Shown: positions 25,133 through 36,897 of the stretch, piece by piece
Layout of the letters: the number at the start of each line of letters is the position of its first letter
Position numbering within the stretch: the stretch's first letter is position 1
Origin: Gracilimonas sp.
Lineage (GTDB): Bacteria; Bacteroidota; Rhodothermia; Balneolales; Balneolaceae
NCBI GenBank assembly: GCA_022450045.1
Contig: JAKURD010000004.1
Coordinates: forward strand, 105,194-169,193
Direction: 5' to 3'
DNA: 64,000 bases
Position numbers and translations under genes: made by a program
The notes under the pieces: model-generated
The model's database searches: none
Told to the model about the DNA's origin: nothing
What the model saw: the letters and a program-made list of their open reading frames with translations, nothing else

Positions 25133-26347
25133 TTAATTCATGGAATCCAGGACTCTTTTCACCACTCCATCCATTGCATCTCCATTGATCCACCGGGTAA
25201 CGATCACCAGATCATTTTCCTGATCTACATACACCATATTCACTCCGGAGCCAAGATGGAAAAAAGCGGATCTTGGGGCACTTGGCAATCGATCTTTATT
25301 CACATTCAAAAACCAATTCATAAAACCATAATTAGTATTGGCTTCGGTGGGTGTTTGGGCCATTTTATTCCATTCTTCAGATATGATCTGCTCGCCTTTC
25401 CACTTTCCATTTCTCAGGGTAAGCAAGCCAAACCGGGCTTGGTCACGCGCACTGATGAACATTCCGCCACCCCAGTGACCACCCCCACTCACGGCCTGCA
25501 TTTGCTGTCCATCTATAATGACCCACGAATTTTCATATCCCATCCAGCGCCAGGCAGGGGAAGCGCCGATCTTATCCATCACTTCTTCCCGAAGCACTTT
25601 TGGCAGCGGTTCACGCAGCACGTTCATAGCGGCTAAAGCCAGCAGATTTACCCGGACATCATTGTACTCAAAAACAGAACCCGGCTCATGGCGCTCGCGG
25701 GTCATCCATTCAGAGCGATCTCCGCTGGGCCGATCAGCCCAATCCGGTTTTCCCCATAGCGTTCCTTCCCAATCAGATGTTTGACGAAGCAGGTGATTCC
25801 AGGTGATTTTGGAATTGTGCTCTCCTTTGAAGGGCTCAAAAACCTTTGGTTCTTTGAAAACATCGGCTTTGTTTTGATTGTTATCCCATTCCATAAAATA
25901 TATGGGCGCCATGTATTGATCAACCTTCTCATTTACATCACGGATCAAACCACGATCATAAGCAATGCCGATGGTGGTAGTGAGAAAGCTTTTGGTTACG
26001 CTGTGGGTCATATCCACCCGAAATGGCTCTCCCCATTCTGCTATTATATATCCGTCTTTGATGATGATCCCGGTTTGCGTTCCGCGATCTTTGAATGGGC
26101 CAATCCCATCCCCAAACGGTTCACGCCCAAAAGTGCCATAATGATTTTCTTCCATGCTGCGGGGATTATCGGTCTCCTGAGCTTGAGCATATTCAATGGC
26201 TTCCTGAATTTTATTTGCATCTAATCCCACTTCTTCCGGAGAACGTTTTTCCCAATCACCCCAGGTGCCGGGGTAATAGAGGTTTTGGGCAGTAAGAAAG
26301 GTTGGGAGTACGAAAAGTACGAGCAGGAGGAGAGGGAGCTTTTTCAT
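25133..26347 (-). CDS. Secreted serine hydrolase (beta-lactamase/class C fold)
   Basis: 404 residues, signal peptide MKKLPLLLLVLFVLPTFLTA. The SxxK motif is in DMTHSVTKSFL and the expected Tyr motif is FEYNDVRVN (YND rather than the usual YxN). A Gly-rich GGGHWGGGMF and HLGSGVNMVYVD near the end supply the third motif region. This fold covers beta-lactamases, esterases and D-aminopeptidases; nothing identifies a specific activity. Acts in the periplasm. Same strand as the S9 peptidase with a ~70-bp gap, possibly one exported-hydrolase operon. Confidence 0.82.
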   Translation of the reverse strand: MKKLPLLLLVLFVLPTFLTAQNLYYPGTWGDWEKRSPEEVGLDANKIQEAIEYAQAQETDNPRSMEENHYGTFGREPFGDGIGPFKDRGTQTGIIIKDGYIIAEWGEPFRVDMTHSVTKSFLTTTIGIAYDRGLIRDVNEKVDQYMAPIYFMEWDNNQNKADVFKEPKVFEPFKGEHNSKITWNHLLRQTSDWEGTLWGKPDWADRPSGDRSEWMTRERHEPGSVFEYNDVRVNLLALAAMNVLREPLPKVLREEVMDKIGASPAWRWMGYENSWVIIDGQQMQAVSGGGHWGGGMFISARDQARFGLLTLRNGKWKGEQIISEEWNKMAQTPTEANTNYGFMNWFLNVNKDRLPSAPRSAFFHLGSGVNMVYVDQENDLVIVTRWINGDAMDGVVKRVLDSMN

Positions 26348-27867: not shown

Positions 27868-27877
27868 GCAGGGCGCG

Positions 27878-27976
27878 GATTAAACGGATTTTGAGATTGC
27901 ACTGATTCCATAGAAAATCCGCGTCCATCCTTCAATCCCCTTAATCCGTGATTCTCCGTTGTGAAAGAATTAATCG
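27878..27976. repeat. GxxExxY-flanking repeat, copy A (3' side)
   Basis: About 99 bp, ~83% identical in direct orientation to copy B at 28401-28499. Shared blocks include GGATTTTGRGATTGCACTGA, TAGAAAATCCG and CCTTAATCCGTGATTCT. The last third overlaps the 3' end of the GxxExxY gene: the repeat encodes its final residues (SQRRITD) and stop. Confidence 0.85.
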
Positions 27977-28342
27977 CTTGAATTCTAAACTTTTTGCCCC
28001 GAAGTTAATGAGTAATCCCACCTCAATTTTATACGCTTTCAAATAATTCAGCGCCTGTGCCATGTGGATGTCATCTAATTTTGAAACGGCTTTTATCTCT
28101 ACCAGGACTTTTCCAGCTACCACAAAGTCCGCTCTTCGTGTTCCAATGGGATATTCCAGATCCCGATAATATATCTGTTGGTCAATCTCCCGTTCAAAAG
28201 TTAATTCTGCTTTTTCAAATTCATAAGCCAAAGCTCTTTGATAAATAACTTCCTGAAATCCATTTCCTAAAAACTTGTGAACTTCAAAGGAGGCCCCGAT
28301 TATTTTCTCAGTGACATCCTGATGTTTTAAATTTGATTTCAT
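27941..28342 (-). CDS. GxxExxY family protein (PDDEXK-like), repeat-flanked
   Basis: 133 residues. The family motif is GFQEVIY (residues 28-34) within EVHKFLGNGFQEVIYQRAL. A PD-(D/E)XK-like core follows: RRADFVVAGKVLVEIKAV, with Asp72, Glu82 and Lys84 as candidate catalytic residues, then MAQALNYLKAYKIEVGLLIN. The biochemical role of this family is not established. A second copy, clearly homologous, is at 34242-34646. This one is enclosed by direct repeats that partly encode its C-terminus, suggesting that gene and repeat move or amplify together (inference). Neighbours have unrelated functions. Confidence 0.88.
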   Translation of the reverse strand: MKSNLKHQDVTEKIIGASFEVHKFLGNGFQEVIYQRALAYEFEKAELTFEREIDQQIYYRDLEYPIGTRRADFVVAGKVLVEIKAVSKLDDIHMAQALNYLKAYKIEVGLLINFGAKSLEFKRLILSQRRITD

Positions 28343-28400
28343 TGTTTCCCCGGTTATTGCAACGATATGGAAGGAAAATAGTAAAATGGTTTGAATCGCT

Positions 28401-28499
28401 GATTAAATGGATTTTGGGATTGCACTGATTCCGTAGAAAATCCGTGTCCATTCGTTAATCTCCTTAATCCGTGATTCTATTTCTATGAAAGAATTAACG
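28401..28499. repeat. GxxExxY-flanking repeat, copy B (5' side)
   Basis: Direct-repeat partner of copy A. It also contains the block corresponding to the last ~11 codons of the GxxExxY gene (CCTTAATCCGTGATTCT ... TGAAAGAATTAA), after which similarity stops. That makes it look like the leftover tail of a second, deleted GxxExxY gene copy. Confidence 0.85.
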
Positions 28500-29876: not shown

Positions 29877-30096
29877 GCTAAAAATTCCATTTCGTTCGTT
29901 GACTGCTTACAATGCTTTGCGTTGTAAGCAATCCGCTCCGACGCAGAGCGTACGGCGCGAGGCTAAAAATTTCCCCGCTTGGGCGGTCCCGAGCATTCGG
30001 GAAGGGTGGGTCAAAGTAACAAAGGCCCAACCATTTTTTAGCAATTCAGATTCTCATCAAAAACCAATTTCACCAACCCCGAACTATATTTAATCC

Positions 30097-34094: not shown

Positions 34095-34097
34095 GGA

Positions 34098-34200
34098 TCA
34101 CAGATTTGTTGGATTGAAGAATTTTAGGATTATGATTGAGTCAATGAATGACTTGTGGAATCCTATAATCCAATAAAATTTAAGTGTAAGGAATTGAGTT
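34098..34200. repeat. GxxExxY-flanking repeat, 5' copy at second locus (degenerate)
   Basis: Between carB and the second GxxExxY gene. The segment GTGGAATCCTATAATCCAAT matches GTGCAATCCCAAAATCCATT of copy B read in the gene's direction, and AGGATCACAGATT matches the ATCACGGATTA end. An internal hairpin pairs TTGGATT and AGGATT with AATCCT and ATCCAA. Similarity is partial, judged by eye. Confidence 0.5.
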
Positions 34201-34241
34201 GGAACTGTTCTAACTGTTGAACAAAAATTTAACAGTTTATT

Positions 34242-34646
34242 ATGGGTGATACTCAAACTCCTGATTTCAAATACAAGAATCTTACCGGTAAGATTATTGG
34301 CGCGGCTATGAATGTTCACTCTGCATTAGGCAATGGTTTCCCGGAAATTATATATCATCGATCAATGATCCATGAATTAACATTTCAGGGGTTAAGCTTT
34401 GAAAGTGAAATATCGATGCCCCTTTTCTATCGAAATGCTAAAGTCGGAAGCCGTAGAGTTGATCTTCTCGTTGAAGGAAAAATTTTGGTTGAATTAAAAG
34501 CAGTTGGAGAAATAAATGATCAGCATATCTCTCAGGTTTTAAACTATTTAAAAGCTTATAAACTCGAAGTTGCTTTACTTTTAAATTTTGGCGAAAACAG
34601 CCTTACCTTTAAGCGCATTGCAAAACTCGAAAATTATAAGAATTAA
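34242..34646 (+). CDS. GxxExxY family protein (PDDEXK-like), second copy
   Basis: 134 residues starting MGDTQTPDFKYKNLTGKIIG. The motif GFPEIIY is at residues 32-38 inside NVHSALGNGFPEIIYHRSM; the nuclease-like core RRVDLLVEGKILVELKAV gives Asp74, Glu84 and Lys86; then ISQVLNYLKAYKLEVALLLN. Similar to the 27941-28342 product along its whole length but clearly diverged, so not a recent duplicate. It sits between carB and recQ, separating two housekeeping genes, and is flanked on both sides by degenerate copies of the same repeat family. Function unknown. Confidence 0.88.
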   Translation: MGDTQTPDFKYKNLTGKIIGAAMNVHSALGNGFPEIIYHRSMIHELTFQGLSFESEISMPLFYRNAKVGSRRVDLLVEGKILVELKAVGEINDQHISQVLNYLKAYKLEVALLLNFGENSLTFKRIAKLENYKN

Positions 34647-34649
34647 AAG

Positions 34650-34720
34650 TGGATTCACAGATAAAGAATGACAAGATAAAATCTGTGAAATCCCAAAATC
34701 CCCCTAATCTGTGATCAAAG
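34650..34720. repeat. GxxExxY-flanking repeat, 3' copy at second locus, reaching into recQ
   Basis: Contains GTGAAATCCCAAAATCCCCC followed by TAATCTGTGATC, matching copies A/B in the orientation of the gene. Internal inverted pieces: ATTCACAGAT near 34654 and ATCTGTGA near 34681. The GTG start codon of recQ (34711) is inside the terminal AATCTGTGATC. Confidence 0.65.
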
Positions 34721-36897
34721 AAGCAAAAGAGACCCTAAAAGAAACCTTCGGCTACGATACCTTTAGGCCCCTACAGGAAGACATTATTAGTCAGGTTACC
34801 CAGAGAAAAGATGCACTTGTAATTATGCCTACCGGTGGAGGGAAATCTCTCTGCTACCAGATTCCGGCGCTGCTGTTCGATGGATTAACAATCGTGGTTT
34901 CCCCGCTCATTTCGTTGATGAAAGATCAGGTGGAACAGCTTAGGGAATATGACATTAATGCCGTTCACCTGAACAGCTCACTATCACCGGAAGCCTATGG
35001 ATACAACCGCCGCCAGGTTTTACAGGGCAAAGCAAGGTTGCTATACATCGCCCCGGAAACATTATTGATGGATAAGACCAGGGATTTGCTTAAAGATATC
35101 AAGGTAGATCTGTTTGCAGTAGATGAGGCACACTGTATTTCAGAATGGGGACATGATTTCCGCCCGGATTATCGTGAATTAGCCCGTGTTCGGAAGGAGC
35201 TTTTCCCAGACGCCACTTGTATGGCCCTAACCGCTACGGCAACGCCACGCGTTCGTGAGGATATCAAAAAAACACTGGAGTTTGGAGAGTCGGAAGAATT
35301 TATTGCAAGTTTTGATCGCCCGAACCTGTTTTTGAAGATCGCCGATAAAGACGATGCTACCAATCAGGTATTGGATTTTTTGTACACCCGTAAAAATCAA
35401 TCGGGCATTATTTACTGCATCTCACGCCGGCAGGTGGATGAATTGTATCAGGCGCTGGAGGATGAGGGTTATTCGGTGAAACCATATCATGCCGGGCTTT
35501 CGGATCGGGATCGCGCTATCAATCAGCGGCAGTTTATTCGGGATGATGTGCAGATTATTGTGGCAACTATCGCATTTGGGATGGGGATCAATAAGCCGAA
35601 TGTGCGTTTTGTGGTTCATTATGATATGCCGCAGAATATTGAGCAGTATTATCAACAAATTGGTCGGGCAGGAAGAGATGGATTACGTTCCGATTGCGTG
35701 ATGCTCTTCAGCTACAACGACCGCCATAAGATCAAATACTTTATCAACAAAAAAGAAGGGCGGGAAAAAGAGGTGGCTGAAAAGCACCTGGAAGACCTTG
35801 TCAAATTCATTGAGACTAAAAAATGCCGTCGGATTCCGCTGATGAAATATTTCGGCGAAGAATACCCCAAAGATGAATGCGGAATGTGTGACAATTGCAT
35901 TTCCAAAGATGAAGATGTTGAGGACTTTACCCTTCAGTCCAAAAAATTAATGAAGTGTATCTTGGACCTGGAAGAAGGATTTGGGAAAACACAGGTGATC
36001 AATATACTGCGGGGGTCGAAAGCGCAAAAGGTATTAGAGCTGGAGCATGAAAAACTGGACTCCTACGGAACCGGTAAAGAATGGTCTAAAAATCAGTGGG
36101 AACAACTATCGCGCATGTTGATTCGACAGGACTATCTTTCAAAAGGAGAACATGCTGAGTTGAAGCTCGAGGAGAAAGCTCATGCGGTAATCAGTGGAGA
36201 TGAAAATGTTTTCGGAACCTTAGATCGAACGGCAACTGCCATGAGTACCGAAGAGGCAGCGCGTGTTACCAGCGAAGTGGAAGCCCGGTATGATGAGAAC
36301 CTGTTCGAGATCCTGCGTACAGAACGAAAGAAAATGGCCGACGAAAAAGGCGTTCCCCCCTACACCATTTTCCCGGATACCACACTGATGGAAATGGCAT
36401 ACTATTTTCCCAAAGACAAAGAGCACCTGCTTCCCATGTATGGTGTGGGTGATGTGAAGCTGAAGAAATACGGTTCTGCTTTTATAGGGGTGATCAAAAA
36501 GTACACGGCTGAACATGGCATTGAAGCCAAAGAAGATTCATTGCTGGAAAAAGTGGAGGAATTAGAGAGCGTGGAATTGCATCAGCAGATAGGGAAAGCG
36601 TTTAATGACGGACAGTCAATTGCGCACCTTGCGGAAGAACACGGGGTGAAGGAAGTCACAATTCTTAATCACTTGAAAGAGTATCTGAATGAAGGCAACG
36701 ATCTCAGGCTCGAGGGAATTACCGAAGCCACTTCACTTTCGCTGCGACAGCAGGATGAGATCATCAAGGTGTTTGATGAAAAGGGTTCACATATGCTGAA
36801 AGTGGTGTATGACAGAATGAATAAAAAGATCGGGTATGATCAGATCCGGATCATGCAGCTTTATTTTATGGCAAATGAAGCTGCGGAGAAGGGTTAA
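34711..36897 (+). CDS. recQ: ATP-dependent DNA helicase RecQ
   Basis: 728 residues from a GTG start. An in-frame stop at 34705 forbids a longer protein, and TFGYDTFRPLQEDIISQV is the usual RecQ N-terminus (motif 0), so the GTG is well placed. Helicase motifs: I IMPTGGGKSLCYQIPAL, II FAVDEAHCISEWGHDFRP, III ALTATATPRVREDI, VI QQIGRAGRDGLRSD. The zinc cluster is in KCRRIPLMKYFGE and ECGMCDNC; winged helix and HRDC domains follow, with an extra helical C-terminus of ~100 residues. It unwinds 3'-5' in recombination and fork repair. Its start codon is supplied by the adjacent repeat. Confidence 0.93.
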   Translation: MIKEAKETLKETFGYDTFRPLQEDIISQVTQRKDALVIMPTGGGKSLCYQIPALLFDGLTIVVSPLISLMKDQVEQLREYDINAVHLNSSLSPEAYGYNRRQVLQGKARLLYIAPETLLMDKTRDLLKDIKVDLFAVDEAHCISEWGHDFRPDYRELARVRKELFPDATCMALTATATPRVREDIKKTLEFGESEEFIASFDRPNLFLKIADKDDATNQVLDFLYTRKNQSGIIYCISRRQVDELYQALEDEGYSVKPYHAGLSDRDRAINQRQFIRDDVQIIVATIAFGMGINKPNVRFVVHYDMPQNIEQYYQQIGRAGRDGLRSDCVMLFSYNDRHKIKYFINKKEGREKEVAEKHLEDLVKFIETKKCRRIPLMKYFGEEYPKDECGMCDNCISKDEDVEDFTLQSKKLMKCILDLEEGFGKTQVINILRGSKAQKVLELEHEKLDSYGTGKEWSKNQWEQLSRMLIRQDYLSKGEHAELKLEEKAHAVISGDENVFGTLDRTATAMSTEEAARVTSEVEARYDENLFEILRTERKKMADEKGVPPYTIFPDTTLMEMAYYFPKDKEHLLPMYGVGDVKLKKYGSAFIGVIKKYTAEHGIEAKEDSLLEKVEELESVELHQQIGKAFNDGQSIAHLAEEHGVKEVTILNHLKEYLNEGNDLRLEGITEATSLSLRQQDEIIKVFDEKGSHMLKVVYDRMNKKIGYDQIRIMQLYFMANEAAEKG

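Follow-up and report, generated by a model that had tools for sequence, protein, structure and literature searches.

Genes of the GxxExxY family are mostly framed on both sides by inverted arrays of short, phased repeat words, and the apparent exchange of gene and frame as a unit points to a widespread, undescribed kind of selfish mobile cassette. The locus at issue lies in a 64,000-nucleotide stretch of a Gracilimonas contig, referred to here as the window. The anatomy of the cassette, its generality, the distribution of array spacing on the protein tree, and its presence or absence, inversion, replacement, and local identity peaks can be read from the sequences themselves. We assign a probability of roughly one-half to the reading that these are homing-like selfish cassettes, in which a small nuclease would recognize its own arrays. 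The window holds two such genes, whose features are as follows.

27941 to 28342, minus strand: GxxExxY gene, 133 amino acids (aa), with a predicted Cas4/RecB-like PD-(D/E)XK nuclease fold (profiles and AlphaFold2 model)
27874 to 27955, no strand: repeat copy A, built of GGATT/CACGGATT units as an imperfect palindrome; it lies downstream of the gene and overlaps its last codons
28397 to 28478, no strand: repeat copy B, the same palindrome as copy A, upstream of the gene
34242 to 34646, plus strand: second GxxExxY gene, 134 aa, located between carB and recQ; it has flanking repeats of its own that differ from those of the first gene
34096 to 34178, no strand: left flanking repeat or hairpin of the second gene (z = −2.52)
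34650 to 34718, no strand: right flanking repeat of the second gene (z = −2.71 for 34640 to 34722)
34186 to 34213, plus strand: promoter-like motif GTAAGG-N16-TCTAA ahead of the second gene, recurring upstream of GxxExxY genes in the census

Copies A and B are 89% identical over 82 nt without gaps (86% over 87 aligned positions when the ends are set slightly wider), are spaced 523 nt apart, and form the sole direct-repeat family of at least 25 nt reported between positions 26000 and 31000. The original prediction had placed repeats on both sides of the gene, with the last residues and stop of the gene inside copy A and the same tail-coding block, lacking a gene body, in copy B. All of this is borne out, as the final four codons and stop (AGA ATC ACG GAT TAA) are located within copy A and the corresponding block is present in copy B. 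Phased GGATT/CACGGATT units make each copy an imperfect palindrome in folds computed with RNA parameters. Under DNA parameters, A (z = −0.40) and B (z = −1.69) fold weakly, and a solo copy at the same site in the congener G007 folds strongly (z = −6.28). The 133-aa product scored 132.9 bits against TIGR04256 (cutoff, 35) and 126.6 bits against PF13366 (cutoff, 22), PDDEXK_3 being the only Pfam domain found. Hairpin-like stretches of the form GTTCCGACGCAGAGCGT..CGGAAC, possibly REP elements, were also seen near carA (around window positions 29930 to 29990) and in empty sites (the L286 and L294 gaps).

A search for the family in 37 related genomes found the gene in 23 of them, with 72 match rows, 69 of which had a locus; 61 loci were full length and 58 had flanks. 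Using a score for inverted repeats between the upstream and downstream flanks (limit, 16), we found inverted ends in 43 of the 58 genes and in 0 of 115 displaced windows. Mispaired flanks reached the limit in 4 of 146 same-genome pairs and in 22 of 291 pairs between genomes (at most 76). Fifteen genes fell below the limit, 9 of which have words on both sides by eye, leaving six without clear words on both sides (L019, L033, L039, L192, L211, and L218). A stricter array detector identified both ends in 16 of the 58 genes, versus 0 of the 115 displaced windows. A cross-locus flank-pairing control, in which 8 of 52 exceeded the 99% level, was inflated by motif sharing and was replaced by the displaced windows and same-genome mispairs.

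The same arrangement is found in many phyla. We took named loci from the best 80 of 556 relatives, a sample biased to one part of the family, and 73 had long enough flanks. Inverted ends were present in 62 of the 73 (11 were below the limit) versus 4 of 250 controls, and phased arrays at both ends were present in 45 versus 0 of 250, with neither feature in 6. The repeat type is thus tied to GxxExxY genes far beyond the window locus (43/58 and 62/73 with inverted ends). The arrays face inward: among 52 loci, inward-sense arrays occurred upstream in 30, downstream in 29, and at both ends in 25, versus 5 upstream and 5 downstream in the opposite sense (0 and 2 in far windows). Both-end arrays were found in 13 phyla (Bacteroidota, Cyanobacteriota, Planctomycetota, Pseudomonadota, Thermodesulfobacteriota, Chloroflexota, Ignavibacteriota, Fidelibacterota, Acidobacteriota, Lentisphaerota, Verrucomicrobiota, Spirochaetota, and Nitrospirota), several of which rest on single metagenome-assembled contigs, so that binning errors are possible. 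The only archaeal locus (L103) has an array downstream only.

The family is present in about half of the sampled genomes of the phylum (152 of 296), many with several copies; the genomic contexts are varied, and some copies are fragments or contain stops. Among 50,697 phage records there was no match to the window protein. The protein of locus L014 matches 8 of 72,556 plasmid records, of which the Bacteroides one resembles a chromosomal contig, and viral contigs yielded one match, with arrays by eye.

All five GxxExxY genes of the Gracilimonas genome itself are flanked by inverted repeats (scores of 16 to 30), and the repeat words differ among them: CGCAGAG, CACAGAG(G), GGATT, CACAGATT, and ACGGATTT. 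The exact window repeat has a strong match in this genome at the window locus only, the next match (E = 0.007) adjoining the second GxxExxY gene of the window. Because the exact repeat is nearly confined to its locus, it is the architecture that is general and not the sequence. A restriction of the repeat to this one locus thus very nearly holds for the exact sequence within its own genome and fails for the repeat type, each of the five genes having inverted repeats of its own. The array detector marked five places along 400 kb of contig C1: a single one at a GxxExxY gene, three inside a miniature element (MITE) described below, and another that is chance-like. A strict setting (at least three words) detected no arrays in the 64-kb window, because the arrays there are too diverged for it.

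A promoter-like motif, GTAAGG-N16-TCTTA/TCTAA, which we take to resemble an ECF-sigma promoter, precedes 14 of 61 GxxExxY genes and has 5 matches elsewhere in 178,695 nt (both strands). By eye, it is also found ahead of a Y1 gene at the carB-recQ site in genomes G001 and G006.

Array geometry was examined in 165 loci, 73 of which have arrays at both ends. The array word resembles CRCNRAK, and successive words are mostly 8 to 13 nt apart, most often 8 to 10. In the 73 both-end loci the medians are 18 nt between array and start codon, 9 nt between stop codon and array, and 461 bp between the two arrays, and the array overlaps the end of the open reading frame (ORF) in just 3. The idea of a mobile "gene plus 3′ tail" unit is therefore not sustained, since the arrays are found at both ends of the gene, point inward, and seldom extend into the coding end. 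The overlap of copy A with the tail codons of the gene is a by-product of the tight packing of gene and arrays.

Array spacing follows the protein tree. We built a FastTree phylogeny of the 165 proteins and divided the loci into spacing classes (median below 9 or at least 9.5); of 106 loci with at least three words, 31 of intermediate spacing were left out of the count. The spacing class changes 4 times on 75 tips, versus 19 to 31 times in 500 shuffles; for the named loci alone there are 2 changes on 46 tips, versus 9 to 14. The overall spacing histogram is not clearly two-peaked. Letters 2 and 5 of the word also track the tree (0 of 500 shuffles for all loci; 16 and 4 of 500 for the named loci). 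For phylum the count is 26 changes on 78 tips, versus 31 to 35 when shuffled, and both spacing classes occur within Bacteroidota and within Cyanobacteriota. Since gene and arms are linked, common descent alone yields part of the spacing correlation, and the conservation of a noncoding word across phyla suggests constraint.

The protein has the hallmarks of a PD-(D/E)XK enzyme. Its GxxExxY and PD-(D/E)XK residues (G28, E31, Y34, D72, E82xK84, and Q96), the active site included, do not vary among 20 aligned proteins. The AlphaFold2 model (mean pLDDT, 92.7) resembles Cas4/RecB nucleases in its predicted fold: the best PDB match is to Cas4 SSO0001 (4ic1; E = 1.6e-4; TM, 0.50 to 0.57), followed by weaker matches to ACE1, lambda-type exonucleases, and AdnAB (E = 4e-3 to 1e-2). 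A Cas4b profile matched the window protein (E = 4e-5) and not the product of the second window gene, and a search for sequence relatives with solved structures yielded none up to an E value of 1. Purifying selection is strong, with dN/dS values of 0.02 to 0.04 in the 3 computable pairs of 8.

Comparison of fixed sites within the genus (genomes designated by G numbers) gives a picture of gain, loss, and exchange. At the DUF114-carA site, the Gracilimonas genome of the window carries the GxxExxY gene with its palindromes, as does G003, also adjoining carA, while G007 and G002 have a solo palindrome without a gene and G004 has nothing. Between carB and recQ, one GxxExxY subfamily is found in the window genome, G003, and G008, and another, 46 to 51% identical to the first, in G007, G004, and G005, with further copies in G013 and G014. 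The same interval in G001 holds a Y1 transposase gene (PF01797; E = 2e-26), and G006 has the same kind of ORF by eye. Between G008, with GxxExxY, and G001, with the Y1 transposase, the right arm is kept. Because a Y1 transposase reuses this interval, site reuse is not special to GxxExxY. In G002 the interval contains a decayed 3′ remnant (by eye). Two side observations concern this interval: the Y1 (IS200-like) ORF is framed by GC-rich hairpins in two congeners (L187 and L188), and in G013 (L190) a tandem duplication of about 200 bp that includes the 3′ end of carB lies beside the GxxExxY gene (by eye).

Two further sites are polymorphic. The L015 site is filled in the window genome, G002, and G003 and empty in G001, G004, and G005; the empty alleles have no arms by eye, which argues that arms are not always a preexisting target. 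The L018 site is filled in the window genome, G001, G006, and G008 and empty in G002, G003, and G005, and only the right arm remains in G004. The original prediction had regarded solo tails as scars of lost genes. That is plausible at some sites, by eye, given the remnants between carB and recQ in G002 and at the L018 site in G004, though gain and loss are not separable at every site. The existence of solo copies without a gene is confirmed, both by the palindromes at the same site in G007 and G002 and by dispersed arm copies in Nostoc-like genomes.

Many same-site copies look vertically inherited. Flanks are shared in 28 of 52 protein pairs with at least 65% identity. The other 24 were first scored as lacking shared flanks in a single-strand comparison; six of these are the same site inverted (three shown by alignment, three inferred) and a seventh is the carA site, which has a local insertion, leaving about 17 of the 52 similar pairs, two of them within one genome, at different sites.

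The clearest exchange is at the L025/L022 site, where G001 and G008, whose carB genes are 98% identical, have flanks that are 97% and 95% identical over 300 nt and a cassette that is inverted and 70% identical. The G008 gene at this site is instead 95% identical in DNA sequence over 302 positions to that of the more distant G006, whose copy aligned only partly to the family model and may be disrupted; an upstream flank of this pair is 78% identical. Identity profiles of G006 versus G008/G001 show peaks of 95 to 98% over the cassette at two sites, fading to a background near 80% within 200 to 400 bp. The profile of a third shared site (L034/L199) is indistinct, and four other comparisons have no such peak. 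Of 18 syntenic pairs, 3 (two of which share a site) had a gene exceeding both of its flanks by 10 points or more, and all clear peaks involve G006 versus the G001/G008 lineage at two sites. From these sequence comparisons, gene and frame seem to be exchanged, inverted, acquired, and lost together. A near-identical empty counterpart in G001 of the G008 locus L199 was not found in 36 stretches of 20 kb, so that no base-exact insertion site was obtained, and a synteny search for cyanobacterial empty sites gave no usable overlap.

Solo arms are dispersed in some cyanobacteria. A 46-nt arm of four units had 22, 17, 6, 11, and 19 matches in five genomes of Nostoc, Komarekiella, and Anabaena, counts that include arms beside GxxExxY genes, with ends that are mostly the same. 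It had 0 matches in three other cyanobacterial genomes, two of which carry the gene with differently spaced arrays (L136 and L128); in the third (L124) the flank is too short to read. Among 30 fetched matches, 4 had a GxxExxY gene in the locus and 26 did not (two on short stretches). By eye, several solo arms occupy the same site across genomes, indicating that not all are recent. On a plasmid of Nostoc sp. C057 (L385, 2340 to 2560), a phased palindrome split by a GC-rich stretch lies between vanadium nitrogenase (vnf) genes; the unit number of one arm is four in C057 and two in C052, and the palindrome is absent in UHCC 0926 (by eye). These alleles are too diverged for exact ends to be read.

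A palindrome family in the window genome has a different origin. It has 24 matches, eight of them full length including the query (the other seven being 93 to 97% identical), and sits within a MITE of about 295 bp with terminal repeats CAATAGCGTCCTAAACGTTG and, by eye, 9-bp target duplications (L273 and L276). Copies include L251 (C1:353655), L273 (C45:74589), and L276 (C35:10169). The MITE carries a phased CGCAGAG palindrome, some copies lacking 22 nt of the array, and in 18 other genomes searched it gave weak partial matches only, in 3. We therefore rejected the solo palindromes of this genome as proof of GxxExxY-driven dispersal, since the MITE spreads them; outside the MITE, repeats in this genome are not high-copy.

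We propose, at about even odds, that the GxxExxY gene, together with the inverted phased arrays flanking it, constitutes one compact selfish cassette. The small Cas4/RecB-like nuclease would recognize the phased words of its own cassette type and would most likely cut or open alleles with no cassette or with another one, solo palindromes and arms among them. Host recombination would then copy the cassette in together with short coconverted flanks, in the manner of intronless homing. Mirror-image arms would allow entry in either orientation, and solo arms and palindromes would represent empty or emptied sites. DNA recognition, cleavage, and nuclease-driven transfer are steps that we infer from sequence patterns. 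Homing fits insertion in either orientation, the short tracts, and site fidelity, and ordinary transfer with selection could also be a source of the identity peaks. In its broadest form the proposal is more tentative: the cassettes may make up a minimal mobile-element class of about 0.46 kb in many phyla, in which a Cas4-like nuclease would recognize the phased inverted arrays of its own cassette (spaced by about 8 or about 10 to 12 nt, according to protein clade) and spread between species by homing-like conversion in either orientation, leaving or seeding solo intergenic arms.

The dispersed solo arms are better fitted by a RAYT-like route, in which the nuclease would move short palindromes or arms around the genome and gene copies would be occasional passengers; TnpA-REP is thought to move REPs in this manner. 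Such a route is favored by the arm matches in five cyanobacterial genomes (6 to 22 each, most sharing the same ends), by the 26 of 30 fetched matches without a GxxExxY gene, and by the Y1 transposase between carB and recQ in G001 and (by eye) G006. We nevertheless consider it unlikely, as the protein is not a Y1/HUH enzyme, the repeats of the window genome are not high-copy outside the MITE, and, by eye, several of the solo arms in cyanobacteria share their site across genomes. A host role, in which a housekeeping nuclease would use the arrays as operators, terminators, or loading sites and the swaps would reflect ordinary homologous recombination under selection, would account for the strong purifying selection (dN/dS computable in 3 of 8 pairs), the promoter-like motif ahead of 14 of 61 genes, and the site stability of many copies across species (shared flanks in 28 of the 52 pairs). 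It accords poorly with patchy presence (152 of 296 genomes) and several copies in many genomes, with inversion, replacement by divergent copies, and fragments or stops in some copies, and with the symmetry of the two ends in varied contexts; we regard it as about as unlikely as the RAYT-like route.

That the arrays are the terminal inverted repeats of an ordinary transposon, moved by a transposase encoded elsewhere, is suggested by the inverted ends and compact unit and by the MITE, which has its own ends and target duplications and carries a phased palindrome. We found no clear target duplications at the arms, however: direct matches of at least 7 nt occurred in 6 of 75 loci versus 5.5% of control pairs, and the mean match was 4.97 versus 4.57 in controls, with one locus having a 13-nt match. 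The array word also differs by locus within one genome, which would be unexpected from one transposase, and this explanation is very unlikely. Mimicry of repeats by AT-rich flanks, to which the weak DNA folds of A and B might lend some color, is refuted by the displaced and mispaired controls and by the recurrence of the same word and geometry in distant phyla, and its probability is negligible.

The GxxExxY family, found in about half of the sampled genomes of the phylum, is annotated merely by its motif. If the arrays are DNA targets, a large uncharacterized family would become a known mobile element, a class of phased intergenic repeats in distant phyla would be explained, and a Cas4-type nuclease would be added to the enzymes known to drive selfish DNA. 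For each family member that has them, the matched arrays are ready substrates, which makes the idea directly testable.

By its profiles the window gene is a clear member of TIGR04256 (GxxExxY) and PF13366 (PDDEXK_3). In the portions of the literature that were available, papers naming GxxExxY contained passing mentions, without repeats or mobility; a full-text search for PDDEXK_3 by name returned nothing, and six repeat words had no literature match. The available literature on RAYTs/REPINs, Cas4, homing, and Nostoc repeats, a scope that left subscription papers largely outside, described no such system. The GxxExxY cassette shares compactness and inverted ends with MITEs and insertion sequences but has no clear target duplications at its arms, and its gene is no known transposase by TIGR04256 and Pfam profiles. 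The predicted fold is common to Cas4, RecB, and lambda exonuclease nucleases. Cas4 has four cysteines for an Fe-S cluster, whereas the window protein has no cysteine and thus no Fe-S cluster of the Cas4 kind.

The REP/RAYT (TnpA-REP) family is similar in that short palindromic repeats flank and scatter around a small single-domain nuclease gene. Dispersal of the GxxExxY arms varies, with 6 to 22 matches in five cyanobacterial genomes, 0 in three, and few in the window genome outside the MITE. The likeness to REP/RAYT systems with a PD-(D/E)XK-type protein, as originally suggested, is upheld as a parallel. GxxExxY proteins differ in being of the PD-(D/E)XK rather than the Y1/HUH type, in having arrays of phased heptamer-like words that vary from gene to gene within one genome, and in belonging to cassettes that swap at fixed sites. 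Free-standing homing endonucleases (T4 seg/mob and intronless homing), as described in the available part of PMC2988022, are lone nuclease genes with coconverted flanks. GxxExxY is likewise a lone nuclease gene, and the identity peaks at two sites may reflect transfer with coconverted flanks. Unlike T4 seg/mob, it resides on bacterial chromosomes, has a Cas4/RecB-like fold and putative cleavage activity, and is framed by its own inverted arrays.
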